A stretch of DNA of 38,061 nt from a bacterium (GTDB lineage: Bacteria > Verrucomicrobiota > Lentisphaeria > Victivallales > GWF2-38-69): the NCBI GenBank assembly GCA_021781705.1, contig JAJXWI010000015.1, forward strand, positions 1-38,061, written 5' to 3'. The translations under genes were made by a program, and so were the position numbers. This document shows positions 13,680-37,177 of the stretch, in pieces (position 1 is the first letter of the stretch; each line of letters starts with the position of its first letter). The notes beneath the pieces were generated by a model, which saw only the letters and a list, made by a program, of their open reading frames with translations, had not been told where the DNA came from and ran no database searches.

Positions 13680-14248
13680 AAGAAATTATACTTGTAGGTG
13701 GTGGAGGCCATTGCAAATCAGTTATAGACGTCATAGAGCTCGAAAATAAATATAAAATAATTGGTGTTATAGATAAAAAAGAATTAATTGGCTCAAAAGT
13801 TTTGGATTATGATGTTATTGGCTGTGATGATGATTTAGGGAACTTGTGTAGATCTTGTAAATATGCCGTTATTACTGTAGGTCAGACTAATTTGCCTACT
13901 ACTCGCATCAGTCTTTTCGAAAAGTTAGTTACTACTGGTTTTATCCTGCCATTTATTGTGTCGTCTCGTGCCTATATTTCGAAGTACGCATTTATTGGAG
14001 AAGGTACCGTTGTTATGCACGATGTCCTAGTCAATGCCAGTGCGAAAATAGGTAGAGGCTGTATTATAAATACAAAAGCCCTCATTGAACACGATGCAAT
14101 CATAGAAGATAATTGCCACGTCAGTACGGGCGCGATAGTAAATGGTGGCGTTATCGTAAAAGCAAATACATTTTATGGCAGCAATGCCACTTCAAAACAA
14201 TGCGCTGAAGTAAGCGGATTCATTAAGGCTGGTAGTGTTGTTAAATGA
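13676..14248 (+). CDS. legH: Sugar O/N-acetyltransferase of the NeuD/PglD/LegH type
   Basis: The 190 residues form an N-terminal small Rossmann-like domain (EIILVGGGGHCKSVIDVI) and a left-handed beta-helix of hexapeptide repeats from about 105, the PglD/NeuD architecture. In the legionaminic route the enzyme at this step (LegH) N-acetylates the 4-amino group to give the 2,4-diacetamido sugar. The catalytic histidine of this family is probably the one in the IEHDAIIE segment. It overlaps both neighbours by 4 bases (ATGA), between the aminotransferase and the synthase, exactly where LegH belongs. The family is sure; N- versus O-acetylation is inferred from context. Confidence 0.82.
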   Translation: MKEIILVGGGGHCKSVIDVIELENKYKIIGVIDKKELIGSKVLDYDVIGCDDDLGNLCRSCKYAVITVGQTNLPTTRISLFEKLVTTGFILPFIVSSRAYISKYAFIGEGTVVMHDVLVNASAKIGRGCIINTKALIEHDAIIEDNCHVSTGAIVNGGVIVKANTFYGSNATSKQCAEVSGFIKAGSVVK

Positions 14249-15243: not shown

Positions 15244-16391
15244 AGATTTGTTTTGTTACCGGAACGCGGGCTGAATATGGATTGCTATACTGGCTGATGA
15301 GAGACATTCAAAAGGATCCATTTTTTGAATGTCAACTGATTGTAACGGGAATGCACCTCAGTCCTGAATTCGGGCTTACATACAAAGAAATAGAAAAAGA
15401 TTTCAAAATAGATAAGAAAGTTGAGATGTTGCTCTCTTCTGATACCCCCGTAGGTATTTCTAAGTCGATGGGATTAGCGCAAATTTCATTTGCTGAAGCT
15501 TATCAAGAACTAAAACCTGATTTAACTGTTGTACTTGGCGATAGATATGAAGTATTCAGTGCAGTAAGTGCTGCAATGATTGCTAGAATTCCAGTAGCGC
15601 ATATTCACGGGGGGGAAGTGACTGAAGGTGCATTTGATGAAGCAATACGACACAGTATAACTAAAATGTCTCATCTTCATTTTACCTCAACTGAAGAATA
15701 TCGAAGTAGAGTCATACAGCTTGGCGAATATCCCAATAGAGTTTTTAACGTAGGCGCTATTGGCTTGGAAAACAAAAAAAGATTAAAATTGCTTACAAAA
15801 GAAGAGTTTGAAAAAGGTATAAATTTTGAATTAAACAAGAAAAATATACTTGTCACTTTTCATCCGGTAACTCTTGAGAATTCAACTGCAGAAATGCAGT
15901 TCAACGAGTTGTTAAGTGCTATAAATGAGCTTGAAGATACTCATATAATTTTTACTAAAGCTAATTCAGATACTGATGGGCGTATTATTAATCAATTAAT
16001 TGATAGTTATGTTTCAAAAAATGGACAAGAATCAATTTCTTTTACTTCTCTTGGGCAACTTAGATATTTATCTGGTATGCAATATGTCGATGCAGTAGTA
16101 GGAAACAGTTCAAGCGGAATTATTGAAGCCCCGAGTTTTAAAATAGGGACAATAAATATTGGGGATAGGCAAAAAGGACGTGTAAAAGCTGAAAGTGTTA
16201 TTGATTGCCAACCTGACAAAGATTCAATCCTAAAAGCTTTCAATAAACTTTATTCAAATGAATTTAAACTTTTATTAGAGAATATTAAGAATCCTTATGA
16301 ATGTACAAATACGGTAAACAAAATAATTAGAGAGATAAAATCTTCTGATTTATCCGATATTTTGAAGAAAACTTTTTATGATCTGGAATGA
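15240..16391 (+). CDS. legG: Hydrolysing NDP-sugar 2-epimerase (NeuC/LegG)
   Basis: This enzyme removes the nucleotide from the 2,4-diacetamido sugar and inverts C2, giving the manno-type substrate for the synthase. The 383-residue GT-B-like protein shows GTRAEYG (8-14), VLGDRYE, HIHGGE and VTFHPVTLE, all NeuC signatures, plus the GNSSSGIIEAP nucleotide-binding segment near the C-terminus. Its presence, rather than a PseG-type hydrolase, argues for legionaminic over pseudaminic acid. It ends the run of overlapping genes. Confidence 0.9.
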   Translation: MKICFVTGTRAEYGLLYWLMRDIQKDPFFECQLIVTGMHLSPEFGLTYKEIEKDFKIDKKVEMLLSSDTPVGISKSMGLAQISFAEAYQELKPDLTVVLGDRYEVFSAVSAAMIARIPVAHIHGGEVTEGAFDEAIRHSITKMSHLHFTSTEEYRSRVIQLGEYPNRVFNVGAIGLENKKRLKLLTKEEFEKGINFELNKKNILVTFHPVTLENSTAEMQFNELLSAINELEDTHIIFTKANSDTDGRIINQLIDSYVSKNGQESISFTSLGQLRYLSGMQYVDAVVGNSSSGIIEAPSFKIGTINIGDRQKGRVKAESVIDCQPDKDSILKAFNKLYSNEFKLLLENIKNPYECTNTVNKIIREIKSSDLSDILKKTFYDLE

Positions 16392-16409
16392 TTTTTTGTA
16401 AAAAACAAT

Positions 16410-17333
16410 ATGACGATGTCAGGAATAAAAGCGTTAATTGTTGGTAAAGGCTCCATCGGAAAACGACATGGAGATGTTTTAGCTGGATTGGGGTTGAACG
16501 TTTATTTTATTTCGCGCCATGATGCATCTGGTTCTAACACTTTTGCTTCTTTGCCAGGTGCCTTTGAATATGACAAGTTTGACTATGTTGTTGTTGCCAA
16601 TCGAACGAGTGAGCATATTGCTTCATTACTTGAACTGGAACGGCTTGGATTCAAAGGTAAATGTCTTGTCGAAAAGCCTCTTTTTACAACAGCCTCAGAT
16701 ACTGGCAAGTTCAATTATGATTTAACCGTAGGATATGTGCTACGCTTTAATCCGATGCTTCAGCGATTACGGGAGATTATATCAGGGCAGAAAATTTTAT
16801 CAATTAATGCTTATTGTGGACAATATCTGCCTGAATGGCGTCCCAACCAGGACTATAGGCAATGTTATTCATCATCTAGAGTGCTTGGTGGTGGAGCATT
16901 GCGTGATTTAAGCCACGAGCTCGATTATTTACAGTATATTGCCGGTGGATGGAAAAGGGTGGTGGCGCTTGGAGGGAAATATAGTGGTCTTGAGATAGAT
17001 TCAGATGATCAATATATGATTTTGATGGAAAGTGATTCCGGAGCAATGAGTTCCTGTCATATCAATTATTTGGACAGGAATATCAGGCGCTTTTGCGCAG
17101 TGGAGTACGAAGGAGGGAGTGTCATTGTTGACTTTATAGGAGCTACGTTCACTCACAATAAGATTGTTGAAAAGTTTAGTTTTGATCGGGATGATATGTT
17201 TATTTCCATGCATAAAGCGATGCTGAATAGTGATTCTAGCATAATTTGCTCTTATGCAGATGGGGTACGAACGGTACATCTGATTGATGCGATAGAGGAG
17301 TCTGCCAAAAAAGGTGCTTGGATATGTTGCTAG
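16410..17333 (+). CDS. Gfo/Idh/MocA-family oxidoreductase
   Basis: This 307-residue NAD(P)-dependent dehydrogenase starts with a Rossmann GKGSIGKRHG motif and has the family's EKP signature in LVEKPLF, here containing the usual catalytic Lys. It is shorter than most relatives (330-350). Similar genes occur beside nonulosonic acid genes in flagellar glycosylation islands, but the substrate is not known to me. It begins a second block with noticeably higher GC than the leg run, and overlaps the CMP-sugar synthetase gene by 10 bases. ATG codons at 16410 and 16416 are both possible starts. It may modify the nonulosonic acid or a precursor. Confidence 0.75.
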   Translation: MTMSGIKALIVGKGSIGKRHGDVLAGLGLNVYFISRHDASGSNTFASLPGAFEYDKFDYVVVANRTSEHIASLLELERLGFKGKCLVEKPLFTTASDTGKFNYDLTVGYVLRFNPMLQRLREIISGQKILSINAYCGQYLPEWRPNQDYRQCYSSSRVLGGGALRDLSHELDYLQYIAGGWKRVVALGGKYSGLEIDSDDQYMILMESDSGAMSSCHINYLDRNIRRFCAVEYEGGSVIVDFIGATFTHNKIVEKFSFDRDDMFISMHKAMLNSDSSIICSYADGVRTVHLIDAIEESAKKGAWICC

Positions 17334-18049
17334 AAAAATCAATAATAAATGCCTGGATTTTTGCTCGCGGAGGGTCTAAAGGGCTTCCTGGGAAAAACAT
17401 CAAACCGCTTTGTGGAAAGCCATTGATTGCCTATTCAATTGATGTAGCGCGGAAATCAAAATACATTTCTGATATTTTTGTATCAACAGATTGTGATGAT
17501 ATCGCACGAGTTGCCCAGGAATATGGGGCTAAAGTGCCTTTTATTCGTCCTGTCGAACTTGCTGGTGACAAATCCCCTGAATATTTGTCATGGAAACATG
17601 CATTGGAGTTCTCAGTAAATAATGGGATAAGAACTGATATTTTAGTGGTATTGCCGACGACGTCTCCCTTGCGGACGGCTGCCGATGTTGATGGGTGTAT
17701 TGATCATTTTGTTGCTTCTAAAGGTTCAGATGTAGCTATTGCCGTGAGTAAATCAAATCATCATCCATCATTCAATATGGTTTTTAGAGATGAAAATGGT
17801 CATGTCGAGTTAGCTTTGCCAATGGAACAAAAAATTGCCAGACGGCAGGATGCAATATCGGTTTACAATATTACTACCGCAGTATATGTTACTACCCCGA
17901 ATTATGTTTTATCAACTAACTCATATTTTGATGGGAATGTAACTTCTATTGTTATTCCGGAAGAGAATGCCGTAGATATTGATACACAGATGGATTTTAT
18001 GCTTGCTGAACTATTATTGAAAAAGAGGCTTCATGAAAACAATCTTTGA
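17324..18049 (+). CDS. legF: CMP-nonulosonate (legionaminate) cytidylyltransferase
   Basis: This enzyme activates the free nine-carbon acid with CTP to the CMP-sugar used by glycosyltransferases. The 241-residue NeuA-like protein has the nucleotide loop IFARGGSKGLPGKN near the N-terminus, followed by KPLIAYSI, a VLPTTSPLR segment and VDIDTQMD near the end. An in-frame TTG lies two codons upstream at 17318, but the ATG at 17324 is the better start. Campylobacter calls the homologue PtmB/LegF. It overlaps its neighbours at both ends and is followed by a PtmA-like gene, the same pairing seen in Campylobacter flagellin-modification loci. Confidence 0.9.
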   Translation: MLLEKSIINAWIFARGGSKGLPGKNIKPLCGKPLIAYSIDVARKSKYISDIFVSTDCDDIARVAQEYGAKVPFIRPVELAGDKSPEYLSWKHALEFSVNNGIRTDILVVLPTTSPLRTAADVDGCIDHFVASKGSDVAIAVSKSNHHPSFNMVFRDENGHVELALPMEQKIARRQDAISVYNITTAVYVTTPNYVLSTNSYFDGNVTSIVIPEENAVDIDTQMDFMLAELLLKKRLHENNL

Positions 18050-18836
18050 GCTGATTGATCTTAAAGGGCGATGTGCTGTTATTACCGGAGCGACTGGATA
18101 TCTTGGGAGAACTTTTTGCCATACTTTGGCTGAACTTAACTGTAATATAGTAATTGTTGACATCAATCCCGACAAATGTAAGGAGTTTGCAACTGAAATA
18201 TCCAGCAAGTATGGTGTTGATTCTTTGGCTCTGGATTGTTATCTTTCAATCGAATCCAATGTTGCCGCCATTCCTGAGAAAGTACAGAAACATTTTGGCA
18301 GGATGGATATCCTCATTAATAATGCGGCTTATGTTGGGACTAGCGGTTTGCAAGGATGGGCTACTTCCTTTGATAAACAATCAACATCTACTTGGCGCCA
18401 GGCGCTTGAAGTCAATTTAACGGCAGTATTTACTTTGTGTCGTGAAAGTGTGCCTCTTTTGAAAAATAGCGGAAACGGTTCGATAATTAACATTGCTTCA
18501 ATTTATGGTTTACTAGGTCCTGATTGGGGACTGTATGATGGAACGGAGATGGGCAATCCAGCGGCATATTCCGCCAGTAAGGGCGGGTTGATCCAGTTTA
18601 CGCGTTGGCTTTCTACCACATGCGCTCCGGGAATCAGAGCTAACAGTATTTGTCCTGGTGGAATATTTAGAAATCAGGATAAAGTATTTCTAGAACGATA
18701 TATTTCTAAAACTCCATTACGCAGAATGGCTATTGAGGAAGACTTTAAGGGGATTATAGCCTATTTAAGTTCTGATATGTCTAGATATGTCTCAGGGCAG
18801 AATTTTATAATAGACGGTGGATTTTCTGCCTGGTAA
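18033..18836 (+). CDS. ptmA: Short-chain dehydrogenase, PtmA-like
   Basis: This 267-residue classical SDR has the cofactor loop TGATGYLG (19-26), NNAAY (97-100 region), the catalytic S156, Y179 and K183, and the IDGGFSAW ending common to the class. In Campylobacter a homologue next to ptmB is needed for flagellin nonulosonate modification; its exact reaction is not evident from sequence. A GAGG ribosome site lies inside the end of the previous gene, which it overlaps by 17 bases. Classification as SDR is firm; the ptmA name rests mainly on context. Confidence 0.78.
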   Translation: MKTIFELIDLKGRCAVITGATGYLGRTFCHTLAELNCNIVIVDINPDKCKEFATEISSKYGVDSLALDCYLSIESNVAAIPEKVQKHFGRMDILINNAAYVGTSGLQGWATSFDKQSTSTWRQALEVNLTAVFTLCRESVPLLKNSGNGSIINIASIYGLLGPDWGLYDGTEMGNPAAYSASKGGLIQFTRWLSTTCAPGIRANSICPGGIFRNQDKVFLERYISKTPLRRMAIEEDFKGIIAYLSSDMSRYVSGQNFIIDGGFSAW

Positions 18837-18856
18837 AAATAAAGGGCTTCTTACTA

Positions 18857-19879
18857 ATGTTTGCATATTGCATTAAAACAGATGCATCTATTTTAGATGC
18901 AATTAAAAACTTGGATGCAAGTGGCCTTGGAATTTGTCTGGTCATAGATTCCAATAGCAGGCTGGTCGGGACTTTGTCTGATGGAGATATTCGGAGAGCC
19001 TTAATTAAAGGAAAAAATCTATCAACTCTGGTCAATGAACATTTGAATTGCAATTTCTATGCAGTTTCGCCTACAGCCAGCCGAGTAGAAGTGCTAGAGA
19101 TTATGCATGCTCTAAAACTCAACCAGGTTCCCATTATTGACCCCGCAGGAAAATTAATGGGTCTCCACTTGATTCATTCGTTGCTCAGTCACCAAATTAA
19201 AGATAATTGGGCAGTAATTATGGCTGGCGGAAAAGGAACCCGTTTGGGAGAAGTAACCTCAACTATACCCAAGCCTATGATTAAGGTGGCAGGCCGTCCA
19301 ATATTGGAACGCATTATTTTACACTTGATCGGGCATAAAATTAAAGATTTTTATATTTCAGTAAATCATCTATCTCATATAATTGAAGACTATTTTAAGG
19401 ATGGAAGTCAATGGGGATGCAACATCCACTATTTGCGGGAAGATAAACCATTGGGGACGGGTGGAGCTCTATCTCTCTTGCCCTCAGTTCCTGGGAGTCC
19501 TCTCTTATTATTAAATGGCGACTTGATCCTGGAATCTGATATAGACAATATGCTAAAGTTTCATCAAACCAATAATTATTATGCCACGATGGGTGTTCAT
19601 TATTATAGTCATGAGGTACCTTTCGGTTGTGTTGAAGTGGATCAGAATAGAATTGTAACATTGGAAGAGAAGCCATTGCTCTCCAAAATTATTAATGCCG
19701 GAGTTTATGTCTTATCTCCTGAAGCCGTTACTTCTGTTCCGAAAAATACTTTTTTCCCAATAACTGCGCTATTTGAAGCTGCACTGAATGAAAAACGCTC
19801 ATGTGGCGCTTATTATTTGGACGGTGATTGGATTGATGTTGGCGTCCCAGAGCAACTTAGACATGCAAGAGGATTATAA
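18857..19879 (+). CDS. ptmE: CBS-domain sugar-1-phosphate nucleotidyltransferase, PtmE-like
   Basis: The 340 residues comprise a pair of CBS domains (about 1-115), which usually bind adenine nucleotides and regulate, and a nucleotidyltransferase domain with MAGGKGTRL and the PKPMIKVAGRP segment. The same arrangement is found in Campylobacter PtmE, a glucosamine-1-phosphate guanylyltransferase that feeds GDP-linked precursors to legionaminic acid. Its presence suggests LegB here may use GDP-GlcNAc rather than UDP-GlcNAc. No mutase or glucosamine-phosphate synthase paralogue is in the window, so the precursor must come from central metabolism. AAAGGG precedes the ATG. Confidence 0.82.
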   Translation: MFAYCIKTDASILDAIKNLDASGLGICLVIDSNSRLVGTLSDGDIRRALIKGKNLSTLVNEHLNCNFYAVSPTASRVEVLEIMHALKLNQVPIIDPAGKLMGLHLIHSLLSHQIKDNWAVIMAGGKGTRLGEVTSTIPKPMIKVAGRPILERIILHLIGHKIKDFYISVNHLSHIIEDYFKDGSQWGCNIHYLREDKPLGTGGALSLLPSVPGSPLLLLNGDLILESDIDNMLKFHQTNNYYATMGVHYYSHEVPFGCVEVDQNRIVTLEEKPLLSKIINAGVYVLSPEAVTSVPKNTFFPITALFEAALNEKRSCGAYYLDGDWIDVGVPEQLRHARGL

Positions 19880-19924
19880 TCTTGAAGATAGTTGAGCATG
19901 CATTTAAATATTTAAAAAAATCTT

Positions 19925-20776
19925 ATGAAAAATATTAGAATAATTCCCAGGCTTGATATAAAAGGTCCAAATCTCGTGAAAGGCATTCACCTTGAAGGAT
20001 TGAGGGTTCTTGGGAAGCCAGAAGATTTTGCACGGTGCTATTACGAAAATGGGGCCGATGAGCTCTTTTTTCAGGATACGGTAGCCAGCTTATACGATAG
20101 AAATAGCCTGCAAGATATCATTACAAAAACAGCTAAAGAGATATTCATTCCTCTAACCGTTGGCGGTGGATTGCGCACTATAGATGATATCCGAAATGTT
20201 CTTAGAGCGGGAGCAGATAAAGTAGCAATTAATACTGCGGCAGTCAAAAATCCATATTTTATTCGTGAAGCATCATTGAAATTCGGTTCTTCAACCATTG
20301 TTGTAGCTATAGAAGCAATAAAAGGCAGTGATGGCAGATATCTGGCGTTTACCGATAATGGTCGCGAATACAGCGGGTTAGAAGTTGTCTCTTGGGCTAG
20401 AAAAGTCGAAGAATTGGGAGCAGGAGAAATTGTTATTACCTCTGTGGATAAAGAGGGAACAGGAGAAGGATATGATTTGGACTTAATTAGATTAGTAAGT
20501 GAATCTGTTACAGTTCCTGTTATAGCACATGGTGGGGCCAGTTGTCCAGAAAATATAGTGCAAGCCATACGCTATGGTAAAGCAGACGCGGTCGCCATTG
20601 CTTCAATTTTACATTATTCCGTTATGAAATCATTCGTTACGTATTCTTGCGACTACCGCGAAGAGGGTAATACCACCTTTTTAAATGCAGGGAAAATTCC
20701 AAAAATGATTAAACCCAGTTCTTTAAGTGACATTAGGGCTGTTTTAATTAAAGAAAATATCCCAACAAGATTCTAA
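19925..20776 (+). CDS. wbuZ: HisF-like ammonia-channelling subunit for sugar amidation (WbuZ type)
   Basis: The 283-residue TIM barrel clearly resembles the cyclase HisF of histidine synthesis, with conserved FTDNG and VGGGLRT phosphate-binding stretches. Asp11 of HisF is kept (RLDIKG), but the second catalytic acid, Asp130, is Glu here (VVAIEAIKG), and the C-terminus is longer. In glycan clusters such proteins pass ammonia from the HisH-like partner to an amidotransferase that turns an acetamido group into an acetamidino group. The next two genes are exactly that partner and that amidotransferase, 1 and 2 bases apart. A role in histidine synthesis is unlikely because no other his gene is near. 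Confidence 0.88.
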   Translation: MKNIRIIPRLDIKGPNLVKGIHLEGLRVLGKPEDFARCYYENGADELFFQDTVASLYDRNSLQDIITKTAKEIFIPLTVGGGLRTIDDIRNVLRAGADKVAINTAAVKNPYFIREASLKFGSSTIVVAIEAIKGSDGRYLAFTDNGREYSGLEVVSWARKVEELGAGEIVITSVDKEGTGEGYDLDLIRLVSESVTVPVIAHGGASCPENIVQAIRYGKADAVAIASILHYSVMKSFVTYSCDYREEGNTTFLNAGKIPKMIKPSSLSDIRAVLIKENIPTRF

Positions 20777-20777
20777 T

Positions 20778-21443
20778 ATGACTAATTTATCTAAAAAAGT
20801 ACTTATCATTGATTACGGGCTAGGCAATCTTTTCAGTGTAACCCAAGCATTAATTAATATTGGGGTAAATGTAAAAACTACATCAAATCCAGACGAAATT
20901 GAATCCGCTGATGCAATAGTTCTTCCAGGGGTTGGCGCATTTAAGGACGCAATGAATAATTTAAAGGACCTTAATTTGATTGATTCAATAAAAAAATCTA
21001 TAGATTCAGGCAAACCCTTTCTTGGTATCTGCTTGGGTCTTCAATTGCTGTTTTCTGAGAGTGAAGAATTTGGGGTAACTAAGGGACTGGATATAGTAAA
21101 AGGGAAAGTAAAAAGATTTTCTAATAACAATCAGGAAGGTGAAATAAGAAAGGTTCCTCAAATTGGATGGAATCAGATTTCTAAAATAAACGGCAAATCA
21201 TGGGATTATACCCCGTTGAATGATATCAAAGAGGGTGAATTTATGTATTTCGTACACTCTTTTTATGTGGAGCCAGAAGAGCCGGTTGGCTTGTCACAGA
21301 CAAACTACGATGGACATTCTTATGTTTCCAGTATCCAAAAAGGTAATATTTTTGCTTGTCAATTTCATCCTGAAAAGAGTGGACATAAAGGTTTAAAAGT
21401 TTACAAAAATTGGGCCGAAATAAATAATTTAAAAAGGAATTAG
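20778..21443 (+). CDS. wbuY: HisH-like glutaminase subunit for sugar amidation (WbuY type)
   Basis: This class I glutamine amidotransferase releases ammonia from glutamine. The triad is complete: C85 in GICLGLQ and H197/E199 in FHPEKSG. The 221-residue length and the YGLGNLFSV opening match HisH and its glycan-cluster paralogues. It should form a heterodimer with the HisF-like protein encoded one base upstream, sending ammonia through the barrel to the PP-loop enzyme encoded next. Confidence 0.9.
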   Translation: MTNLSKKVLIIDYGLGNLFSVTQALINIGVNVKTTSNPDEIESADAIVLPGVGAFKDAMNNLKDLNLIDSIKKSIDSGKPFLGICLGLQLLFSESEEFGVTKGLDIVKGKVKRFSNNNQEGEIRKVPQIGWNQISKINGKSWDYTPLNDIKEGEFMYFVHSFYVEPEEPVGLSQTNYDGHSYVSSIQKGNIFACQFHPEKSGHKGLKVYKNWAEINNLKRN

Positions 21444-21445
21444 AT

Positions 21446-22660
21446 ATGAATCAAAATGAATTAGCAGTTTATTATGGACTTCCTAAGGAGGTGAAATTTT
21501 GCAAGAAATGCGTCATGAGCAATCAACGACCAACATCAACTATTGAGTTCAGGCACACAAAGGATAGTAAAAAGACTACTATGAATTTTGACGGCGGAGG
21601 AGTATGTGATGCTTGCCGTACTTCTGAGACTAAAGAGAAAATTAACTGGGCACAAAGAGAGAAGGAGTTAATTCAGTTATTAGATAAATACAGAAGCAAA
21701 GATGGCAGTTATGACTGTTTAGTTCCAGGGAGCGGCGGAAAAGACAGTGCATTTCAATCGCATGTATTGAAGTATAAGTATGGCATGCATCCACTAACGG
21801 TTACCTGGCCTCCTATACTTTACACCGACTACGGCTACAAAAATTTTAAAAACTGGATTGACAGTGGCTTCGATAATATCTCGTTTAACAGAAATGGTAA
21901 AACGATGAAACTATTAACAAAATTGTCAATCGAAAATCTGTTTCACCCGTTTCAAACCTTTATTTTAGGTCAAAAAAATCTTGCACCTAAAATTGCATGT
22001 AAATATGGAATACCTTTGATATTTTATGGAGAGAACGAAGCAGAGTACGGCAATCCTATTGCTGATAATTCTTCTTCGCTACGTGATAAATCGTATTATA
22101 GCTATAATAATTTAGATGAGATTTATTTAGGTGGAGTTTCAATTCGTGAGTTGAAGGAAAAATACAATGTGCCGCTTAATGACCTGCTCTCATTCTTGCC
22201 AGCAGATTCAAAAGAATTGGAACGATCGAATATCCAGGTACATTACTTAGGATACTACCTGAAGTGGACTCCGCAGGAAGTTTATTACTATGCTGTAGAA
22301 AATACAGGGTTTAAAGCGCGACCGTTTAGAACTCAAGGAACTTATAGCAAATATAATAGTATCGATGACAACATGGATGATTTGCACTACTATACTACTT
22401 TCATAAAGTTTGGAATAGGCAGAGCTACATACGATGCATCGCAGGAAATCAGAAATAAACACCTAACAAGAGATGACGGGAAGGCCTTGGTTAAAAAATT
22501 TGATGGCGAATTCCCAGACAGATATTTTAAAGAAATTATGGAGTATCTTGAGATTAATCCCGACCACTTTTGCAATGAATTAACTGACAAATTTCGCTCA
22601 CCGCATTTATGGAAAGAAGAAGATGGCGGATGGAGGTTAAGACATTCTGTTTGGTGCTAA
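21446..22660 (+). CDS. PP-loop N-acetyl sugar amidotransferase (WbpG/WbuX/PseA family)
   Basis: This 404-residue ATP-dependent enzyme adenylates the amide oxygen of an N-acetyl group and replaces it with ammonia, giving an acetamidino group. The PP-loop SGGKDS is at 96-101, and two CxxC pairs (C19/C22 and C54/C57) suggest a zinc knuckle. Family members act on pseudaminic or legionaminic acids (PseA-type) or on aminouronic acids (WbpG-type). With a full legionaminic route directly upstream, a legionaminic precursor is the best guess, but the GalNAcA branch cannot be excluded. AAGGA precedes the start. It closes the amidation trio. Confidence 0.87.
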   Translation: MNQNELAVYYGLPKEVKFCKKCVMSNQRPTSTIEFRHTKDSKKTTMNFDGGGVCDACRTSETKEKINWAQREKELIQLLDKYRSKDGSYDCLVPGSGGKDSAFQSHVLKYKYGMHPLTVTWPPILYTDYGYKNFKNWIDSGFDNISFNRNGKTMKLLTKLSIENLFHPFQTFILGQKNLAPKIACKYGIPLIFYGENEAEYGNPIADNSSSLRDKSYYSYNNLDEIYLGGVSIRELKEKYNVPLNDLLSFLPADSKELERSNIQVHYLGYYLKWTPQEVYYYAVENTGFKARPFRTQGTYSKYNSIDDNMDDLHYYTTFIKFGIGRATYDASQEIRNKHLTRDDGKALVKKFDGEFPDRYFKEIMEYLEINPDHFCNELTDKFRSPHLWKEEDGGWRLRHSVWC

Positions 22661-28728: not shown

Positions 28729-29937
28729 ATGATTAAGAAAATTATTTTTTTTGTTTCTTCTCCGTTGAGTAAACGTGATTATAAACGTTTTGGAATCGAA
28801 ATACTTCGGAATAATGGATTTGAGGTCGATGTTTTCGATTTCACCCCCATGGTAAATCCACTACTTTACCATTATCAAAAAAAAGCTTTTCCGCACAAAA
28901 CTAAGGAAGAAGGAGTTACTATTGTTAGTCGAAAAGATGGCTATCAATCCATTTTGACGTTAACAGGAGAATGCTTTGTAGTTTGTCTTATGCATTATAG
29001 GCGTGAGACTTTTTGGATATATAAGGCGCTTTCAAACACCAAGGTATTGTATGCTATAGATCTATTAAATAATTTTCCCTCGACTGACATATCTGGAGTG
29101 GGAAGCAATCGTATTTTTAAAAAAAAATCTCAAATAACGTTGCCTAAAATAATTAATTTTATTAATAATTATAGATTTCGACCCTCTTTTGCAAAATATC
29201 TAGGAATTCGTGGTCCCAAATTTATTCTCGCAGGAGGAGAATCCTCGCTAAATAGTTCATATACTGCTCTTATTGAGGAAAATACAGAAATATTATGGTT
29301 GCATTGTTTAGACTATGATATTTATTTAGATCACTTAAATAGTGTTGAATTTAAGGCTACAACTAATTCTAATAAGGCTCTGTTTATAGATGGGGGCGGA
29401 CCGCAATTTTCAGGGGATGAGCTTATACATGGCAGAAAGTGTATTCTCAGTAAGGAGAAATATTATCCGAGCTTGTGCAGATTCTTTGATGTAATAGAAA
29501 ATAAACTGGATGTAAGTGTAGAGATTGCTGCTCATCCTCAAAGCGATCATGAAAACAGGCCCTATTACTTTGGGCAAAGATTAGTTTTGCATGACATGAT
29601 TTTTAAAATGATTATGCAATCTAAAATTGTTATAACACACGCTAGTACAGCAGTTAACATTGCTAATATATTGAAGAAACCCGTTATTTTTATCACCACA
29701 GATGAGTTTGAAGCTGACACATTTTTTTCGTATTCAGTAAATATAAGATCAGCAGCATCTTGGTTTGGGAAAAAACCAATAAACATAGATCACAATATTG
29801 ATAGTGTAGATTTTAGTCAAGAGCTATTGGTTGATGAAATTTGTTATCATAAATACAAAAATGCTTTTATCAAGAAAGATGGATCTGAAGACTTGCCATC
29901 CTGGCAGATTCTAGCGAATAGACTAAAAGAGTTTTAA
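28729..29937 (+). CDS. Unassigned protein with sialyltransferase-like motifs
   Basis: I do not recognise a named family for this 402-residue protein. It is predicted soluble and looks like a two-domain GT-B protein: a Rossmann-like start (KIIFFVSSPLSKRD) and a C-terminal half with D221-G-G-G, H269-P270 (IAAHPQSD) and H304-A-S-T (ITHASTAVNIANILKKPVIF). Bacterial sialyltransferases share an acidic-Gly motif, an HP motif that binds CMP, and a Ser/Thr-rich motif in this order. With CMP-legionaminic acid made upstream and a flippase just downstream, a legionaminic acid transferase is an attractive guess. Other GT-B polysaccharide enzymes also have HP and Ser/Thr motifs, so this stays a hypothesis. 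Confidence 0.5.
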   Translation: MIKKIIFFVSSPLSKRDYKRFGIEILRNNGFEVDVFDFTPMVNPLLYHYQKKAFPHKTKEEGVTIVSRKDGYQSILTLTGECFVVCLMHYRRETFWIYKALSNTKVLYAIDLLNNFPSTDISGVGSNRIFKKKSQITLPKIINFINNYRFRPSFAKYLGIRGPKFILAGGESSLNSSYTALIEENTEILWLHCLDYDIYLDHLNSVEFKATTNSNKALFIDGGGPQFSGDELIHGRKCILSKEKYYPSLCRFFDVIENKLDVSVEIAAHPQSDHENRPYYFGQRLVLHDMIFKMIMQSKIVITHASTAVNIANILKKPVIFITTDEFEADTFFSYSVNIRSAASWFGKKPINIDHNIDSVDFSQELLVDEICYHKYKNAFIKKDGSEDLPSWQILANRLKEF

Positions 29938-29985: not shown

Positions 29986-31515
29986 TTGGATTCTTTAAGA
30001 AAAAGATATTTTTTTAAGCTAATGACAAATATTGTTGGACTTTTGATAAGTGCAATAACGATGTCAGTAATTCCTCGTGGACTTGGGCCTAAAGCTTACG
30101 GCGATTTTAGCTTTCTCAGTAATTTTTTTACTCAAATTGTTTCGTTTTTGGATACTGGTACGTCAACTGCCTTTTACATTAAGCTTTCTAATCGGCAAAA
30201 AGATATTGGGCTCATCACCTTTTATATTGGATTTGCGTTAATAGCTTCTATATCTCTTTTCTTGTTCATTTTTATTATTAGCCTTACGTCTTTGACAACG
30301 AAAATTTGGCCAGAGCAGTTGATGTTCTTTGTTTATCTTGCGGCGATATGGGGAATTTTTTACTGGTTTGTTCAAATTCTTAATAAAATGGTCGATGCCT
30401 TCGGGTTGACCGTGCCTGCGGAATTGGTAGGGATCGCTCAGAAAATCTTAGGGCTCATACTTATTATAAGTCTATTTTTTACTGGTCAGCTAACATTAAA
30501 GAATTTTTTTTATTATTACTATGTGTTATTGCTAGTTCTTGGCATTTCGTTTGCTTGGATCATTAAAAAACACATTGCTAGTCTTGGGGCTTTGTGGAAA
30601 ATTTCAAAAAATCAGATTTTTTCTTATGCTAAAGAATTTTATCAATATAGCCACCCATTATTTTTATTAGGCATTGTTGGTATTGTTGCAGGCATACTTG
30701 ACCGCTGGCTCTTACAGATATTTGGCGGAAGCAAACAACAGGGTTTTTACGGTCTTTCATATCAAATTGGTGCGGTTTGTTTCATTTTTACTAGTGCTAT
30801 GACTCCTTTAATTACAAGAGAGTTCTCCATTGCATTCTCAAATAAAAATCTGTCCCATATGGCTTGTTTGTTCAGACGTTATATTCCTCTTTTCTATGCA
30901 ATTGCTGCATTTTTTTCATGCTTTCTTGCCGTGCAGGCAGATAGTGTTGCTTATATATTTGGAGGAGCAAAATTTCTTGATGCTTCTTTAGCAATAGCTA
31001 TTATGGCTCTTTATCCAATTCATCAAACGTATGGGCAGCTTAGTGCTTCCGTATTTTTGGCTACCGGTCAAACGGGATTGTATCGAAACATGAATGTTAT
31101 TTTTACCATCATTGGACTTCCTCTTACGTATTTCTTAATTGCCCCCGTTGATATGCTGGGGGTAAGTGCAGGCTCGACAGGTTTGGCTATTAAAATGGTT
31201 GTAATTCAAGTTGTTGCGGTGAACGTTCAACTTTATTTCAACGCAAAATTACTACAATTGTCATTTTGGAAATACTTTACGCATCAAATATTGTGCTTAG
31301 GCTGTTTATTGTTGTTGGCCTTTCTTTCCTCTTTTAAGATAACTAATTGTTTCAGTTCATTCACAAATATTATAATTAATTTTATCTCAAATGGAATGTT
31401 GTACACAATAACTGTTGTCGTTTTGGTCTATTTCGTGCCATCGGTATTCGGTTTAAACCGCAAGGATATCTCCGTTTTTCTTGAATTCATACAAAGATTT
31501 ATGCTAAAAGCTTGA
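29986..31515 (+). CDS. wzx: Wzx-type lipid-linked oligosaccharide flippase
   Basis: The 509-residue protein is mostly hydrophobic with about 12-14 membrane helices and the N-terminal IPRGLGPKAYGDFSF pattern common to the MATE/MOP-superfamily polysaccharide exporters. It would move completed repeat units across the inner membrane. The frame begins with TTG at 29986, with an ATG at codon 13 (30022) as an alternative; neither has a strong ribosome site. Its presence implies a Wzy-dependent route, but no Wzy polymerase is in the window. Confidence 0.85.
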   Translation: MDSLRKRYFFKLMTNIVGLLISAITMSVIPRGLGPKAYGDFSFLSNFFTQIVSFLDTGTSTAFYIKLSNRQKDIGLITFYIGFALIASISLFLFIFIISLTSLTTKIWPEQLMFFVYLAAIWGIFYWFVQILNKMVDAFGLTVPAELVGIAQKILGLILIISLFFTGQLTLKNFFYYYYVLLLVLGISFAWIIKKHIASLGALWKISKNQIFSYAKEFYQYSHPLFLLGIVGIVAGILDRWLLQIFGGSKQQGFYGLSYQIGAVCFIFTSAMTPLITREFSIAFSNKNLSHMACLFRRYIPLFYAIAAFFSCFLAVQADSVAYIFGGAKFLDASLAIAIMALYPIHQTYGQLSASVFLATGQTGLYRNMNVIFTIIGLPLTYFLIAPVDMLGVSAGSTGLAIKMVVIQVVAVNVQLYFNAKLLQLSFWKYFTHQILCLGCLLLLAFLSSFKITNCFSSFTNIIINFISNGMLYTITVVVLVYFVPSVFGLNRKDISVFLEFIQRFMLKA

Positions 31516-31664: not shown

Positions 31665-32963
31665 ATGTCAAATGTTTATGTAGGAATGACTATTGATGTC
31701 TTGCATCATGGCCACATCAATATTATCGAGCATGCTCGACAGTATGGTGATGTAATAATAGGCCTGATTACCGACGCAGCAATCGCTGATCACAAGCGCT
31801 TACCCTACTTGACTTACGAACAGCGGAAAAAAATAGTTGAAAATATTAGCGGTGTAACTAGAGTCGTGCCTCAAGAAGAATGGGACTACGCTCCCAACAT
31901 TAGGCTATATCGTCCAGATTTTATGGTGCATGGTACTGACTGGCTTGAAGGTCCGATGGCTCCGTATCGCCAGAAAGCTTTAGATGCCCTTTCTGAGTAT
32001 GGAGGAAAGTTAATTGAAATACTCTATACGCAGGGTGTTTCTTCACAAGCATTAGTTTCACAATTACAAGGTTTGGGAACCACCGTGGATATCAGACGAA
32101 GAACTTTGAAGCGACTATTGGCGGCTAAGCCAATTTCACGCTTCATCGAAGCACACAATCCAATATCTGCTCTTATTGCCGAGAGTGAAATAGTTGATGT
32201 GGATGGGAAAATTAGACAATTCGATGGATTTTGGTCTAGCTCACTTACCGATTCTACCGTTAGAGGTAAGCCTGATATTGAGGCTTTGGATATCAGCAGT
32301 CGGCTATCCAATGTGAACGATATTTTCGAGGTTACCACTAAACCTCTTATTTTTGACGGGGATACTGGGGGTAAGCTTGAACACTTTGAGCTGAATGTCC
32401 GATCCATGGAACGTCTTGGTATTTCGGCCGTTATAATCGAGGATAAAAAGGGACTAAAGAAAAATTCCCTTTTGGGCAATGAGGTTGTTCAAACCCAGGA
32501 GAATAAAGAGTTATTTTGTGACAAAATACGTGCCGGTCGAGCTGCGAGAATTTCCCACGATTTTATGGTATTTGCTAGAATTGAAAGCTTAATTCTAGAT
32601 CAAGGCATGAACGATGCAATTACACGGGCGCAGGCATACATAGGTGCCGGGGCAGATGGTATCATGATCCATAGTCGCAAAAAAACGCCTGACGAAGTGT
32701 TCGAATTTTCTCGTATCCTTCGAAGTGATTTTCCAAGTATACCACTTGCATGCGTTCCTACAAGTTATAATACCGTTAATGAAGAGGAGCTTGCCGCAAA
32801 CGGTGTTAATATCGTGATCTATGCAAACCATCTATTGCGTGCTGCATATCCAGCTATGCACCGTGTTGCTCATGAAATACTCCGTTGTGGCCGTTCAGCA
32901 GAAGTTGATGCTGATTTGATGAGTATAAACGATATTTTGAAAATAATCCCAGGTACCCGATAA
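31665..32963 (+). CDS. Cytidylyltransferase-PEP mutase fusion (phosphonate entry enzyme)
   Basis: The 432 residues join an N-terminal nucleotidyltransferase of about 130 residues, with the HHGH site at 14-17 and YTQGVSS in place of the usual second motif, to a phosphoenolpyruvate mutase. The mutase has the DGDTGG metal site and the diagnostic loop E259-D-K-K-G-x3-N-S268, which separates true mutases from the lyases of the isocitrate lyase superfamily. The mutase turns PEP into phosphonopyruvate, the first step of nearly all phosphonate biosynthesis; the fused domain probably activates the final aminophosphonate with CTP. A strong GAGGG ribosome site and a 149-base spacer, one of the longest in the cluster, precede it, so it may start its own transcript. 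Confidence 0.92.
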   Translation: MSNVYVGMTIDVLHHGHINIIEHARQYGDVIIGLITDAAIADHKRLPYLTYEQRKKIVENISGVTRVVPQEEWDYAPNIRLYRPDFMVHGTDWLEGPMAPYRQKALDALSEYGGKLIEILYTQGVSSQALVSQLQGLGTTVDIRRRTLKRLLAAKPISRFIEAHNPISALIAESEIVDVDGKIRQFDGFWSSSLTDSTVRGKPDIEALDISSRLSNVNDIFEVTTKPLIFDGDTGGKLEHFELNVRSMERLGISAVIIEDKKGLKKNSLLGNEVVQTQENKELFCDKIRAGRAARISHDFMVFARIESLILDQGMNDAITRAQAYIGAGADGIMIHSRKKTPDEVFEFSRILRSDFPSIPLACVPTSYNTVNEEELAANGVNIVIYANHLLRAAYPAMHRVAHEILRCGRSAEVDADLMSINDILKIIPGTR

Positions 32964-34106
32964 ATGATTAAGCCACTTGAATTCATAGCTTCGCTAAAAA
33001 ATCTGGATATCAGATTTGTAACAGGCGTACCGGATTCACTGCTGAAAGATATTTGTGCCTGTATAACTGAATATTTTTTGCCGCCGCAGCATGTTATTGC
33101 TACCAATGAAGGTTCTGCGGTGGGTTTAGCGATTGGACACTACCTAGCGACTAGACGGCCTGCGCTCGTATATATGCAGAACTCAGGGATAGGCAATGCG
33201 GTAAACCCAGCAACCTCCCTTGCCGACCCGCAGATATATGCGATACCCATGATTTTCATGATCGGATGGCGTGGCGAGATACTTGAAGATGGGAAGCAAA
33301 TTCATGACGAACCCCAGCACGTAATGCAGGGTCAAATTACTTTACCTCAATTAGATATTATGAAGATACCCTATATTATTATTGATAGCAACTCAATGAG
33401 AATAGACCATGTACTCAGTAAACTCATTGAGCTTGCAATGTTAAGATCAGGTCCAGTGGCGCTGGTTGTGAGGAAGCAGACATTTCATCCATTTAAGTTG
33501 ACAAAACCCGTTTGCGAAGATAGCAGATTGACGCGCGAAACGGCCATTTCTACCGTTATAAATGCTCTTCCCGGACATGTTCCAATTGTCTCAACGACAG
33601 GTATGGCGTCTCGTGAATTGTTTGAACTGCGCAAGGCAATGGGGCAAGGACACGATAGAGATTTTTTGACCGTGGGTGGTATGGGACATGCCGGACAAAT
33701 TGCTGCTGGTATTGCTATGGCAAAACCAGATTGCCAAATTGTTTGCATTGACGGAGATGGCGCAGTGTTAATGCATATGGGGTCATTGGCAATCAGCGCC
33801 GATTGTTCCAACTTATTACATATTGCAATCAATAATGGCGCTCATGATTCTGTAGGCGGTCAACCAACAAAAGGAGCAGTTCTCGATTTTACAAAGATAG
33901 CTAAAGCCTGTGGGTATGGATGCATTTCATCTGCAGTAACCATGGACGAAATTGCCCTAAATGTACAATCTATGCTGGGAAGCGGCTTGAGTTCGTTCCT
34001 GGAAATCAAATGTAAGTGTGGCGCGCGAGCGAATCTTGGCAGACCAGACCGTACGCCTGCAGAAAACAAGAGCGATTTTATGCGATTTCTTGAGAAGGAT
34101 CTATGA
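32964..34106 (+). CDS. aepY: Phosphonopyruvate decarboxylase
   Basis: This thiamine diphosphate enzyme (380 residues) decarboxylates phosphonopyruvate to phosphonoacetaldehyde, pulling the unfavourable mutase reaction forward. The N-terminal GVPDSLLK and TNEGSAVGLAIG segments and the C-terminal cofactor motif GDG...NNG (GDGAVLMHMG to AINNGAHDS) are characteristic. It starts directly after the mutase stop codon and overlaps the transaminase gene by 4 bases, so production of the three enzymes is probably coupled. Confidence 0.93.
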   Translation: MIKPLEFIASLKNLDIRFVTGVPDSLLKDICACITEYFLPPQHVIATNEGSAVGLAIGHYLATRRPALVYMQNSGIGNAVNPATSLADPQIYAIPMIFMIGWRGEILEDGKQIHDEPQHVMQGQITLPQLDIMKIPYIIIDSNSMRIDHVLSKLIELAMLRSGPVALVVRKQTFHPFKLTKPVCEDSRLTRETAISTVINALPGHVPIVSTTGMASRELFELRKAMGQGHDRDFLTVGGMGHAGQIAAGIAMAKPDCQIVCIDGDGAVLMHMGSLAISADCSNLLHIAINNGAHDSVGGQPTKGAVLDFTKIAKACGYGCISSAVTMDEIALNVQSMLGSGLSSFLEIKCKCGARANLGRPDRTPAENKSDFMRFLEKDL

Positions 34107-35131
34107 AAAAGAATCTTAAATCTATTGAAACATTTGTGGCCGAACAGAATGATCGTAAATTATTATTTACGGCTGGTCCGGCAAGTTTGTTGCCCGAGAA
34201 TCTTGCAGGATTGCGTCCATGCTTTGGACGCGGGGATGGCGATTATGCCCAAGTTGAAGATCAAGTCCTTGGTGCACTGAAAGTCATGACAGGGCATAAA
34301 CGGATTGTGCGCTTGCAAGGATCAGCAAGCCTTGCACTGGAAATTATGGCCATGAATTTTCTCTACGGTCGCGTGTTAGTTGTGTCAACTGGTTATTATT
34401 CTGATCGTCTGAAATGGTTGGCCGATTCTGCAATGCGACGAGCAGGAGAAGTGAAGGAAGTTGTGATAGCCGATTGGAAAAACGTAGAATCAATGACAGG
34501 AAGTTTTGATTGGGTTTTTGCTTGCTATACTGAAACTAGTTGTGGTCTGAAAATTCCGATCGAAATATTAAGTTCCTTGGCAAAGAATACAGGTGCGCGC
34601 CTGATGTTGGATGCTACTGCTTCTATTGGTCTTGAGTCGGGTCACGAACTAGCGGATGTCATCGGTTATAGCTCTTGCAAGGGACTGTTTGGGCTTGTGG
34701 GTGCCAGCTTTATCGCATTCAATGAGCCATCAGCAGTAGAAGTTGATTCTTTCTACCTCCGGCTTGACACTCACATCAATAAATTAATGACAGGACCGTA
34801 TCATGCCATTTGTTCGTTGGCGGAAGTAATGCCAAAACACAATGATTTCCGTGCAGCCGTAGTCGAAAACAAACGAGTGTTTTTAAGCCGTATGGGAAAT
34901 TATCTAATTATTCCTAATATTTACCAACCTCTGTTGTGCACACATGTATATTGTGAGATCGCCAGTGGCAATCCACGTGCAATTCTATATAAGCCCCGTA
35001 GCAACATTGGCGGCAGCGTTGTCTGCCATTTGGGTGAAGTTCATTTGGGCCGAACCGCCAAGGGGAGGATTCTTGACGCGCTGATAATTCCCATAGCTAA
35101 TGACTTAGAGCGAGGAGTCAACGGTATATGA
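34103..35131 (+). CDS. 2-aminoethylphosphonate transaminase-like class V aminotransferase
   Basis: This 342-residue PLP enzyme of the class V fold has the cofactor lysine K193 in YSSCKGLFGLVG and D170 in LMLDATASIG; TAGPASLLP opens the fold. After a mutase and a decarboxylase it should aminate phosphonoacetaldehyde to 2-aminoethylphosphonate. Class V members also include serine-glyoxylate transaminases, so the assignment depends on the neighbours. It overlaps both neighbours by 4 bases. Confidence 0.85.
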   Translation: MKKNLKSIETFVAEQNDRKLLFTAGPASLLPENLAGLRPCFGRGDGDYAQVEDQVLGALKVMTGHKRIVRLQGSASLALEIMAMNFLYGRVLVVSTGYYSDRLKWLADSAMRRAGEVKEVVIADWKNVESMTGSFDWVFACYTETSCGLKIPIEILSSLAKNTGARLMLDATASIGLESGHELADVIGYSSCKGLFGLVGASFIAFNEPSAVEVDSFYLRLDTHINKLMTGPYHAICSLAEVMPKHNDFRAAVVENKRVFLSRMGNYLIIPNIYQPLLCTHVYCEIASGNPRAILYKPRSNIGGSVVCHLGEVHLGRTAKGRILDALIIPIANDLERGVNGI

Positions 35132-35550
35132 AAAGCGAAGCGAAACGAATTATGGTTGATATGTCAGCGACATTGATTCATCATGGCCATATACGCATAC
35201 TTAAAGCTGCCAAGAAATTAGGCACTGTGATAGTGGCTCTTACAATGGACAATGAGATCATTGCCAAAAAAGGATATGAGCCTGAGCTAAACTTTGCGGA
35301 ACGTAGTGAGATTCTTGAGGCAATTAAATATGTTGATGAAGTTGTGCCTTCCCCTTGGTTATTAGACGAGGCCTTTCTCAGTTTGCATAAAATTGATTTG
35401 CTGGTACACGGCCATGACAATACCAATCTTATTATTCCGGAGCGGCTACTGGTTTTGCCGCGCACGAAAGGGGTTAGTAGCAATATTTTGCGCAGTAGAG
35501 TTTTGAAAACAGTTGCTGAATTTATAGCATTAAGAGAGGAAAAGATATGA
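35128..35550 (+). CDS. Stand-alone cytidylyltransferase
   Basis: The 140-residue protein is a small CTP:phosphocholine/glycerol-3-phosphate-type nucleotidyltransferase, with an HHGH motif at 18-21 and the RTKGVSS loop near the C-terminus. It probably makes CMP-aminoethylphosphonate or a related CMP ester. The cassette thus has two cytidylyltransferase units, this one and the N-terminal domain of the mutase fusion. Here the second loop is closer to the classic RTxGxS form, so it may be the active enzyme while the fused one has diverged, or the two may act on different substrates. It overlaps both neighbours by 4 bases. Confidence 0.85.
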   Translation: MKSEAKRIMVDMSATLIHHGHIRILKAAKKLGTVIVALTMDNEIIAKKGYEPELNFAERSEILEAIKYVDEVVPSPWLLDEAFLSLHKIDLLVHGHDNTNLIIPERLLVLPRTKGVSSNILRSRVLKTVAEFIALREEKI

Positions 35551-36233
35551 GCAATTGGAAAGAAATATGGAATAGGAGAAACTCAGACGAAGGAGTAATA
35601 GATTTGGACACCCTTATCAAGTTAGACGGATATGATACAGGAGCTGGGCGGATTGATGCGACAAATTGGCGACGACATGCTGCATCTATTGCGAATAGGC
35701 TCGGCATAAATAATGGTGCAACTGTGTACGAAGTAGGCTGTGGTTCGGGTGCGTTTCTATATGCATTGCGGGAGTTGTTTCCTATCAAGGTGGGAGGTAT
35801 TGACTATTCTGCAGGACTTATAGCGACTGCATCCCAGGCCATGCCGGACGGGCATTTCACAGAAGGTGGTGCCGCAACACTTGACATTGTGCCACAATAC
35901 GATTTTGTAATTTCAAACGGCGTGTTTCATTACTTTAGTCTTGAATATGCTAGTGAGGTTTTGGAACGTATGATGAAGAAGTCAAAAATTTCAGTTGGCA
36001 TCATGGATATTCCTGATGTGGCTACCAAAGATGAGGCAGAGGCATTGAGGCGTGGTATTTTGGGGCCAGAGGAATATAATGAAAAGTACAAAGGGCTTGA
36101 GCACACATATTATGCACGGAGCTGGTTTGAGGAGCAAGCAAAGGAACATGGATTTACGTGTAAGATATTTGATGGCTGTGTGCCGAACTATGCCCAAAAC
36201 TCTTTCAGATTTGGAATTATTATACATAAATAG
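35547..36233 (+). CDS. Class I SAM-dependent methyltransferase
   Basis: This 228-residue enzyme has the SAM-binding motif EVGCGSGAF (62-70) and a conserved acidic residue in the next strand (GGIDYS). Translational overlap with the cytidylyltransferase suggests a substrate in the same pathway. N-methylation of aminoethylphosphonate is plausible, since N-methylated forms are known in phosphonate-bearing lipids and glycans, but O-methylation of a sugar is equally open. The membrane transferase gene follows after a 74-base spacer. Confidence 0.78.
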   Translation: MSNWKEIWNRRNSDEGVIDLDTLIKLDGYDTGAGRIDATNWRRHAASIANRLGINNGATVYEVGCGSGAFLYALRELFPIKVGGIDYSAGLIATASQAMPDGHFTEGGAATLDIVPQYDFVISNGVFHYFSLEYASEVLERMMKKSKISVGIMDIPDVATKDEAEALRRGILGPEEYNEKYKGLEHTYYARSWFEEQAKEHGFTCKIFDGCVPNYAQNSFRFGIIIHK

Positions 36234-36307
36234 TTCTGTGTTAAAAATTACCTTGTATTCTGTAAAAAAAACACAAAACATATACCAAAGATAAAATTTA
36301 TAAAAAA

Positions 36308-37177
36308 ATGAAAAAAATTCGTGAAATAAGAAAAGGATTATATTCTAATGCTAAAGAAGTAAGTATTAATGAATATGGAGTTGATTTAGATAATTGGCGT
36401 GCGGAACCATATACAAGCCTAAAGGCCAGATTTTATATGGAAGCAAGTTCTGTTCTAGTTTGGCTGTTATTGAAAACTAAAATAAAACCGAACACAGTTA
36501 CTATTTTTTATGGTCTTGCAGGAATAATAGGATGTGTTCTTTTATCGATTCCATATAAATGGACAATAATTGTTGCTTTGTTTATATTTTTTACTAAAGG
36601 CATCTTGGATTGGACTGACGGTCAACTCGCACGTGAGACAAAGCAAACGTCCCTTGCCGGACATATGCTCGATGCTTATGGGGCACAGCTTGGGGCTTTG
36701 GGTCTACAAATTGGCCTGGGATTTTATGTTGCACAAAAAGTGGATTTTATGCCTTTTTTTTATTTAGTACCACTAATTCCATTTTTTTATACCGCAAGTT
36801 TAACCAGTTTTTGTTACTCTCCACTGTTTGACCAGATCAGTAAAGAATCTTTAAAAATCCAAAATGAGAAAAATCTGCAAAAAGAAAAGAATGGAGAGAA
36901 TAATGGTGCTGATGATATTCGTAGTGATAGATGGAAGCGATATCTATGGATAAACCATGTTCTTGACGATCGCGCTAGAAGCGTGGATTTTATATTATTA
37001 TTGATATTAATAGAGATTATTTATCCTTCTTTTTTTGTTACATGGATAGTCTTTTTATTGCTTGTTTTTAAGAGATTTTTAATTTTTAGTGGGAAGTTTT
37101 ATCTTGTGGCATATAAAGGCTGGGTAGAAAGAACATTGGAAACCAAGCTGAATGAAATCCTCAGCGGTAAGTCATAA
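36308..37177 (+). CDS. CDP-alcohol phosphatidyltransferase-like membrane enzyme with a missing Asp
   Basis: The 289-residue protein has several membrane helices and the family signature at 101-126: D101-W-T-D104-G105-x2-A108-R109-x8-G118-x3-D122-x3. The consensus ends in a fourth Asp, the presumed catalytic base, but position 126 is Ala (codon gca). A charged insert (about 185-220) separates the later helices. Known relatives move a phospho-alcohol from a CDP-alcohol to a second alcohol. After a phosphonate pathway and a cytidylyltransferase, it may move aminoethylphosphonate from its CMP ester to a lipid or glycan. The missing residue means a different mechanism, a helper protein, or lost activity. 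Codon use returns to the AT-rich style here. Confidence 0.82.
   Translation: MKKIREIRKGLYSNAKEVSINEYGVDLDNWRAEPYTSLKARFYMEASSVLVWLLLKTKIKPNTVTIFYGLAGIIGCVLLSIPYKWTIIVALFIFFTKGILDWTDGQLARETKQTSLAGHMLDAYGAQLGALGLQIGLGFYVAQKVDFMPFFYLVPLIPFFYTASLTSFCYSPLFDQISKESLKIQNEKNLQKEKNGENNGADDIRSDRWKRYLWINHVLDDRARSVDFILLLILIEIIYPSFFVTWIVFLLLVFKRFLIFSGKFYLVAYKGWVERTLETKLNEILSGKS

Follow-up and report, generated by a model that had tools for sequence, protein, structure and literature searches.

Most of the phosphonate capacity of bacteria is thought to serve the tailoring of cell surfaces, and among the closest described systems of this kind is the Pnt phosphonyl-tailoring pathway, with the PntC enzymes of Atopobium rimae and Treponema denticola (Rice et al., 2019; PMC6697681). 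These characterised 2-aminoethylphosphonate (AEP) enzymes are LicC-like (PF12804), and nucleotidyltransferases fused to phosphoenolpyruvate (PEP) mutase, as well as doubled or additional ones, have already been reported (PMC6697681). Another described relative is Fom1 of Streptomyces wedmorensis (fosfomycin), a PEP mutase with an N-terminal PF01467 cytidylyltransferase that acts on hydroxyethylphosphonate (HEP). Phosphonate activation and transfer have nevertheless barely been characterised so far. Here we describe a phosphonate gene set in a complete 38,061-base contig of a Victivallales bacterium (the window; assembly of 2.58 Mb in 140 contigs), where a fused and a free cytidylyltransferase stand together. 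We consider it fairly probable that positions 31665–36233 form a horizontally acquired phosphonyl-tailoring cassette providing AEP activated with cytidine monophosphate (CMP) for a surface glycan, and that its fused cytidylyltransferase probably does not act on HEP.

Families were assigned to the window's proteins with NCBIfam and Pfam profiles at their curated cut-offs. The six open reading frames and families of the original prediction at 31665–37177 were all recovered, with the qualifications that the transaminase is diverged and that the PF01066 protein has Ala for its fourth Asp. The first two genes abut, the next three each overlap by 4 bases, and the sixth starts 74 bases after the fifth. 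The PEP mutase (TIGR02320, 398.8 bits against a cut-off of 319.6) and the decarboxylase (TIGR03297, 456.3 against 312.5) score well above threshold, and PF01467 domains were found both at the N-terminus of the mutase (51.5 against 21) and in the free enzyme (51.3 bits). Together these support the predicted phosphonate biosynthesis with CMP activation. PEP would be converted through phosphonopyruvate and phosphonoacetaldehyde to AEP, which the fifth gene product (PF13649, 44.8 bits against 27) probably N-methylates; the free enzyme would form CMP-AEP from AEP and cytidine triphosphate, and a transferase, either the CDP-alcohol phosphotransferase-like protein (PF01066, 42.0 bits against 22) or the product of the gene at 28729, would move the phosphonate to a surface glycan that the legionaminic acid genes around the cassette would produce. 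All substrates named here, the order of methylation and activation, the acceptor and the transferase are inferred; what the sequences show directly is which genes are present and in what order, the motif states, the fusions and, in Methylophilus, purifying selection.

As in the Pnt pathway, PEP mutase, decarboxylase, a transaminase (here diverged and only probably AEP-making) and predicted cytidylyl activation lie in a cell-surface gene cluster. The mutase carries the EDKxxxxxNS motif (EDKKGLKKNS in the translation), with one nucleotidyltransferase fused to it and another nearby. Unlike in the Pnt pathway, both belong to PF01467, and an intact second enzyme stands beside an intact fused one. 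The pathway is ordinary in outline, while the variant with two intact cytidylyltransferases is unusual. The original prediction had called the doubled activation unusual; doubling and fusion as such had been published before (PMC6697681), and what stands is that both enzymes are intact, unlike in the other sampled AEP-type loci.

To place the window we compared 92 PEP-mutase loci, for the most part taken from the window's phylum, from the classes of Methylophilus and of a Campylobacterales genome, and from the phylum to which the Vulcanococcus genome belongs, and classified their neighbours with profiles built in this analysis. An iron-type alcohol dehydrogenase neighbour (annotated as phosphonoacetaldehyde reductase in Segatella copri) marked the HEP route, and a homologue of the AEP transaminase marked the AEP route. 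Counts refer to fused loci in which the fused protein carries no LicC-like domain, and a second cytidylyltransferase was counted up to 5.5 kb away, contig ends truncating some loci. On this basis a second cytidylyltransferase accompanied 24 of 26 AEP-type loci, as opposed to 4 of 44 HEP-type loci. After collapse at 85% identity the counts were 11/13 and 2/31 (Fisher 7e-7, a descriptive value that ignores relatedness). The fused domain kept its HxGH, Lys and G[ILV]S[ST] motif letters, which speak of sequence and not of activity, in 42 of 44 HEP-type loci compared with 10 of 26 AEP-type loci. These ten are all members of the window's clade; outside it, neither the Lys nor the last motif survives in any AEP-type locus. 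This comparison, with an intact fused enzyme going with the HEP route and a separate enzyme with the AEP route, is what is new here; such a rule was not met in the literature searched, from which subscription journals were largely absent, and its novelty is provisional. The pattern would make PEP-mutase neighbourhoods predictive of which phosphonate is made.

The window's clade comprises the window, Methylophilus, a Vulcanococcus metagenome-assembled genome (MAG) and the genome G105, which belongs to the same phylum as the window. It forms a group of 11 rows in the PEP-mutase tree with a Shimodaira–Hasegawa-like approximate likelihood ratio support (SH-aLRT) of 100, and both of its cytidylyltransferases have intact motifs. 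On the same tree, at least seven route changes and at least eight motif-state changes were required. Our proposal is that the fused domain is of Fom1 (HEP) type, that it lost its motifs in other AEP lineages with a separate cytidylyltransferase, and that it would have been retained in altered form in the window's clade. Several observations weigh against the account as a whole. A relatedness-corrected test on four well-supported independent pairs was not significant, with means of 3.0 and 2.3 pairs agreeing and none opposed. The transaminase reaches 58.8 bits to TIGR03301 (PhnW/AepZ), compared with a cut-off of 360.8, and has no Pfam match. The window's own genome holds three distant iron-type alcohol dehydrogenase matches (27–31% identity) and may therefore encode a reductase. 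Finally, in the motif of the PF01066 protein (DWTDGQLAR..G...DAYGA) three Asp are kept and the fourth is Ala, so that the four-Asp signature of CDP-alcohol phosphotransferases is incomplete.

The fused domain itself resembles Fom1 in its position on the PEP mutase and its kept catalytic motifs (HHGH, K and GVSS), and its nearest solved relative is the cytidylyltransferase domain of Fom1 (5x3d, 163 bits). Unlike Fom1, it stands in a cassette with a transaminase and without a phosphonoacetaldehyde reductase that would supply HEP, and at 14 diagnostic positions the clade differs from 42 HEP-type domains; the changes include HPGH to HHGH, SYK to DHK and TLDY to EWDY. Since the domain is kept but altered near the active site, its substrate is probably not HEP but, for example, AEP or a modified AEP. 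Could it instead be a non-functional leftover, with the free enzyme alone at work? The lost motifs suggest that state for the other AEP-type loci. In the window's clade, however, the motifs are intact, the mean ratio of nonsynonymous to synonymous substitution rates (dN/dS) in Methylophilus is as low for the fused domain (0.023) as for the mutase (0.028; free enzyme 0.037), a sign of strong purifying selection, and the ratio of cytidylyltransferase to mutase distances (1.29) resembles that of HEP groups (0.85–1.21) more than that of AEP groups with lost motifs (1.70–2.30). A relic was rejected on these three grounds, and we regard it as very improbable. Dependence of the fused domain's retention on the methyltransferase was likewise ruled out, two loci (L059 and L017) being without that gene. 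In one Methylophilus rhizosphaerae locus (L013, 6933–6944), a stop at codon 133 is followed immediately by an ATG, separating the cytidylyltransferase from the PEP mutase.

That the fused domain still makes CMP-HEP as Fom1 does, with a reductase encoded elsewhere and a surface bearing both AEP and HEP, would fit a Fom1-type domain with intact motifs. It would also fit a campylobacterial locus (L202) that combines a reductase, an AEP transaminase, a LicC-like cytidylyltransferase and an intact fused domain. Against this, the margin of the active site is unlike that of HEP-type domains, and no iron-type alcohol dehydrogenase match was found in the G105, Methylophilus and Vulcanococcus genomes, the search covering that reductase class alone, while the window's genome has the distant matches given above. 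We hold CMP-HEP to be an improbable product. Somewhat easier to entertain, though still doubtful, is that both enzymes make CMP-AEP, in which case fusion would bring activation close to the pathway and having two enzymes would be a matter of redundancy or dosage. Both carry HHGH, Lys and GVSS, and HHGH is the motif in all ten free enzymes compared. Yet the two are just ~31–36% identical across the shared stretch and both are under strong selection, for which redundancy alone would hardly account. A more specific form of our preferred reading, a substrate other than HEP, is that the fused enzyme was retargeted to a second phosphonate such as an N-modified AEP, one mobile cassette thus yielding two CMP-phosphonate donors. 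We advance this only tentatively; if true, a cytidylyltransferase fused to PEP mutase can switch specificity rather than decay in an AEP-type pathway. The clade offers a setting in which one could ask directly why there are two activating enzymes.

The transaminase, far under its cut-off and without a Pfam match, is a diverged member of its family. Its best PDB match is an AEP:pyruvate transaminase (7e7g, 1.7e-9), and that of the free cytidylyltransferase is an ethanolamine-phosphate cytidylyltransferase. Orthologues of the free enzyme are fused to AEP transaminases in L019–L021. The partner in L019 is a bona fide AEP transaminase (407 bits against 360.8), and the one in L021 is an orthologue of the window's own type. 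Because one cytidylyltransferase family is joined to both transaminase types, both probably make AEP, and the free enzyme is probably an AEP cytidylyltransferase. It matches PF01467 only and not PF12804; it may therefore work like PntC without belonging to the PntC family, and would place a different family in PntC's role, as a candidate AEP-activating enzyme that is not LicC-like. Close homologues also occur singly, with unrelated genes around them, in a spirochaete (L015, 7309–7719) and in an Ignatzschineria MAG (L018, 7354–7824), whose genome yielded no match to PEP mutase at a threshold of E 1e-20. Such free-type enzymes away from phosphonate genes call for caution in assigning AEP to every member.

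Coordinates of the cassette and of the other features discussed are collected below.

Table 1. Phosphonate genes and neighbouring glycan genes of the window.
Feature	Position	Strand	Length and profile
PEP mutase with N-terminal Fom1-type cytidylyltransferase domain (residues ~1–140)	31665..32963	+	432 aa; TIGR02320 + PF01467
Phosphonopyruvate decarboxylase	32964..34106	+	380 aa; TIGR03297
Diverged aminotransferase, probably AEP-making	34103..35131	+	342 aa; TIGR03301 below cut-off
Free PF01467 cytidylyltransferase, predicted AEP cytidylyltransferase	35128..35550	+	140 aa; PF01467
S-adenosylmethionine (SAM) methyltransferase, predicted substrate AEP or a derivative	35547..36233	+	228 aa; PF13649
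CDP-alcohol phosphotransferase-like membrane protein, candidate phosphonate transferase	36308..37177	+	289 aa; PF01066
Legionaminic-type nonulosonic acid genes (LegB, LegC, acetyltransferase, NeuB, NeuC, Gfo/Idh-like, CMP-sugar synthase)	11552..18049	+	
PtmA-like, PtmE-like, HisF/HisH-like, WbuX N-acetyl sugar amidotransferase	18033..22660	+	WbuX over cut-off; His_biosynth, GATase
Unassigned protein, alternative transferase candidate	28729..29937	+	weak PF04464-like GT-B resemblance
Polysaccharide flippase (Wzx-like)	29986..31515	+	PF01943 36.1 bits, cut-off 28.2

The survey of other genomes that had been proposed found the gene set in the same order in Methylophilus, the Vulcanococcus MAG and G105. 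When genome contigs were scanned with the free enzyme, all five genes were recovered in eight Methylophilus loci, with part of the set on two shorter contigs, and the first four genes in the Vulcanococcus MAG. G105 also has the first four. Gene by gene, these loci are ~48–77% identical to the window, with G105 at 70–77% over its four genes, and the conservation of order is well beyond chance. Among 59 other relatives the fused gene was absent, and a wider draw in the window's order yielded a single one (G222, 58% identity), which is HEP-type. The cassette genes have a guanine-plus-cytosine (GC) content of 0.40–0.45, compared with 0.33–0.38 for most other genes of the cluster; homologous cassette loci elsewhere have 0.51–0.58. 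The patchy distribution and the deviant GC content are directly observed parts of the case, and the five-gene cassette was probably acquired horizontally. One plasmid record (Segatella copri) carries a full fused gene, two unannotated faecal clones among phage records carry distant ones, and the viral contigs searched held no relative of the fused or the free enzyme.

In all eight full-length Methylophilus loci (L006–L009, L011–L013 and L016) the cassette has flagellin and fliD to one side, and its other flank is occupied by a PF04464-like protein together with a giant TPR/GT41 protein. This arrangement suggests that the phosphonate is placed on flagellin, and makes Methylophilus a cultured genus in which such decoration may occur. 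The type A flagellin glycan of Clostridioides difficile carries AEP, with PEP mutase reported to be lacking (PMC8861647); the Methylophilus cassette lies beside flagellin, whereas a flagellin match is absent from the genome of the window. A surface polymer is therefore likelier there than a flagellar glycan. Phosphonylated glycoproteins have also been proposed in Prochlorococcus, via HEP or methylphosphonate (PMC8931226); phosphonate genes are again tied to surface glycoconjugates, although the window's route is AEP-type.

Homologues of the methyltransferase were found in the Methylophilus cassettes and at two AEP-type loci of campylobacterial genomes; a further, weak match lies where the route is ambiguous. 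In G105 (L059, 5922–7058; G105:C23) an octopine/nopaline-dehydrogenase-like gene (PF02317, 100.5 bits) replaces it, and its product might couple AEP through its amine to a keto acid. In another locus (L069, 7502–9493; G149:C74) an AEP transaminase is fused to an unrelated SAM methyltransferase, and a second cytidylyltransferase was not found nearby. We read these arrangements as a hint of modification at the AEP amine.

Transfer is the least certain part of the model, because LicD-like, PF04464-like and PF01066 proteins take turns near PEP mutase across loci. If the PF01066 protein put AEP from CMP-AEP on diacylglycerol, the product would be a phosphonolipid and the glycan genes would be unrelated. 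Such membrane proteins stand beside several HEP-type PEP mutases, and the window's follows the cassette directly. We nevertheless think a phosphonolipid unlikely given the glycan-cluster setting, the Ala for the fourth Asp, the GC content of the PF01066 gene (0.337, unlike the cassette) and the Methylophilus cassettes, which adjoin the PF04464-like protein, flagellin and GT41 protein instead. The nearest relative of the window's PF01066 protein in our set (L182) lies beside a HEP-type mutase and has His at the fourth-Asp position. For transfer to a surface glycan, as we propose, the 28729 protein is a weak alternative candidate. It has no Pfam or NCBIfam match, resembles PF04464-like GT-B proteins with an hhalign probability of 75% over 74 columns, and gave a single-sequence fold prediction with a predicted local distance difference test (pLDDT) score of 33.

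The glycan-cluster setting with a nonulosonic acid route was borne out. LegB (486.9 bits, cut-off 475), LegC (571.8, 420), the NeuB-type synthase (522, 399.65) and the NeuC-type epimerase (494.3, 235.9) all exceed their curated cut-offs, and the legionaminic acid route is real. The CMP-sugar synthase is of PseF type at 151.4 bits, under its cut-off of 205.7, and the cluster also holds the flippase and a NusG-like gene. The combination of nonulosonic acid and phosphonate genes had been thought unusual. It is not unique: in five other loci, NeuB homologues are located no more than 9 kb from PEP mutase.

Four campylobacterial loci (L207, L209, L211 and L213) have PEP mutase and decarboxylase beside adenylylsulfate-kinase-like and radical-SAM-like genes, both recognised from sequence only, some of the loci also having a PF01066-type protein. 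Neither reductase nor AEP transaminase was detected in these loci, which suggests a third phosphonate route. Within the window's glycan cluster, 25494–27479 encodes a B12-binding radical SAM protein with similarity to KedN5-type C-methyltransferases, scoring 247 bits where the cut-off is 700, and an ISL3-family transposase gene (279–1529) lies close to the contig start.

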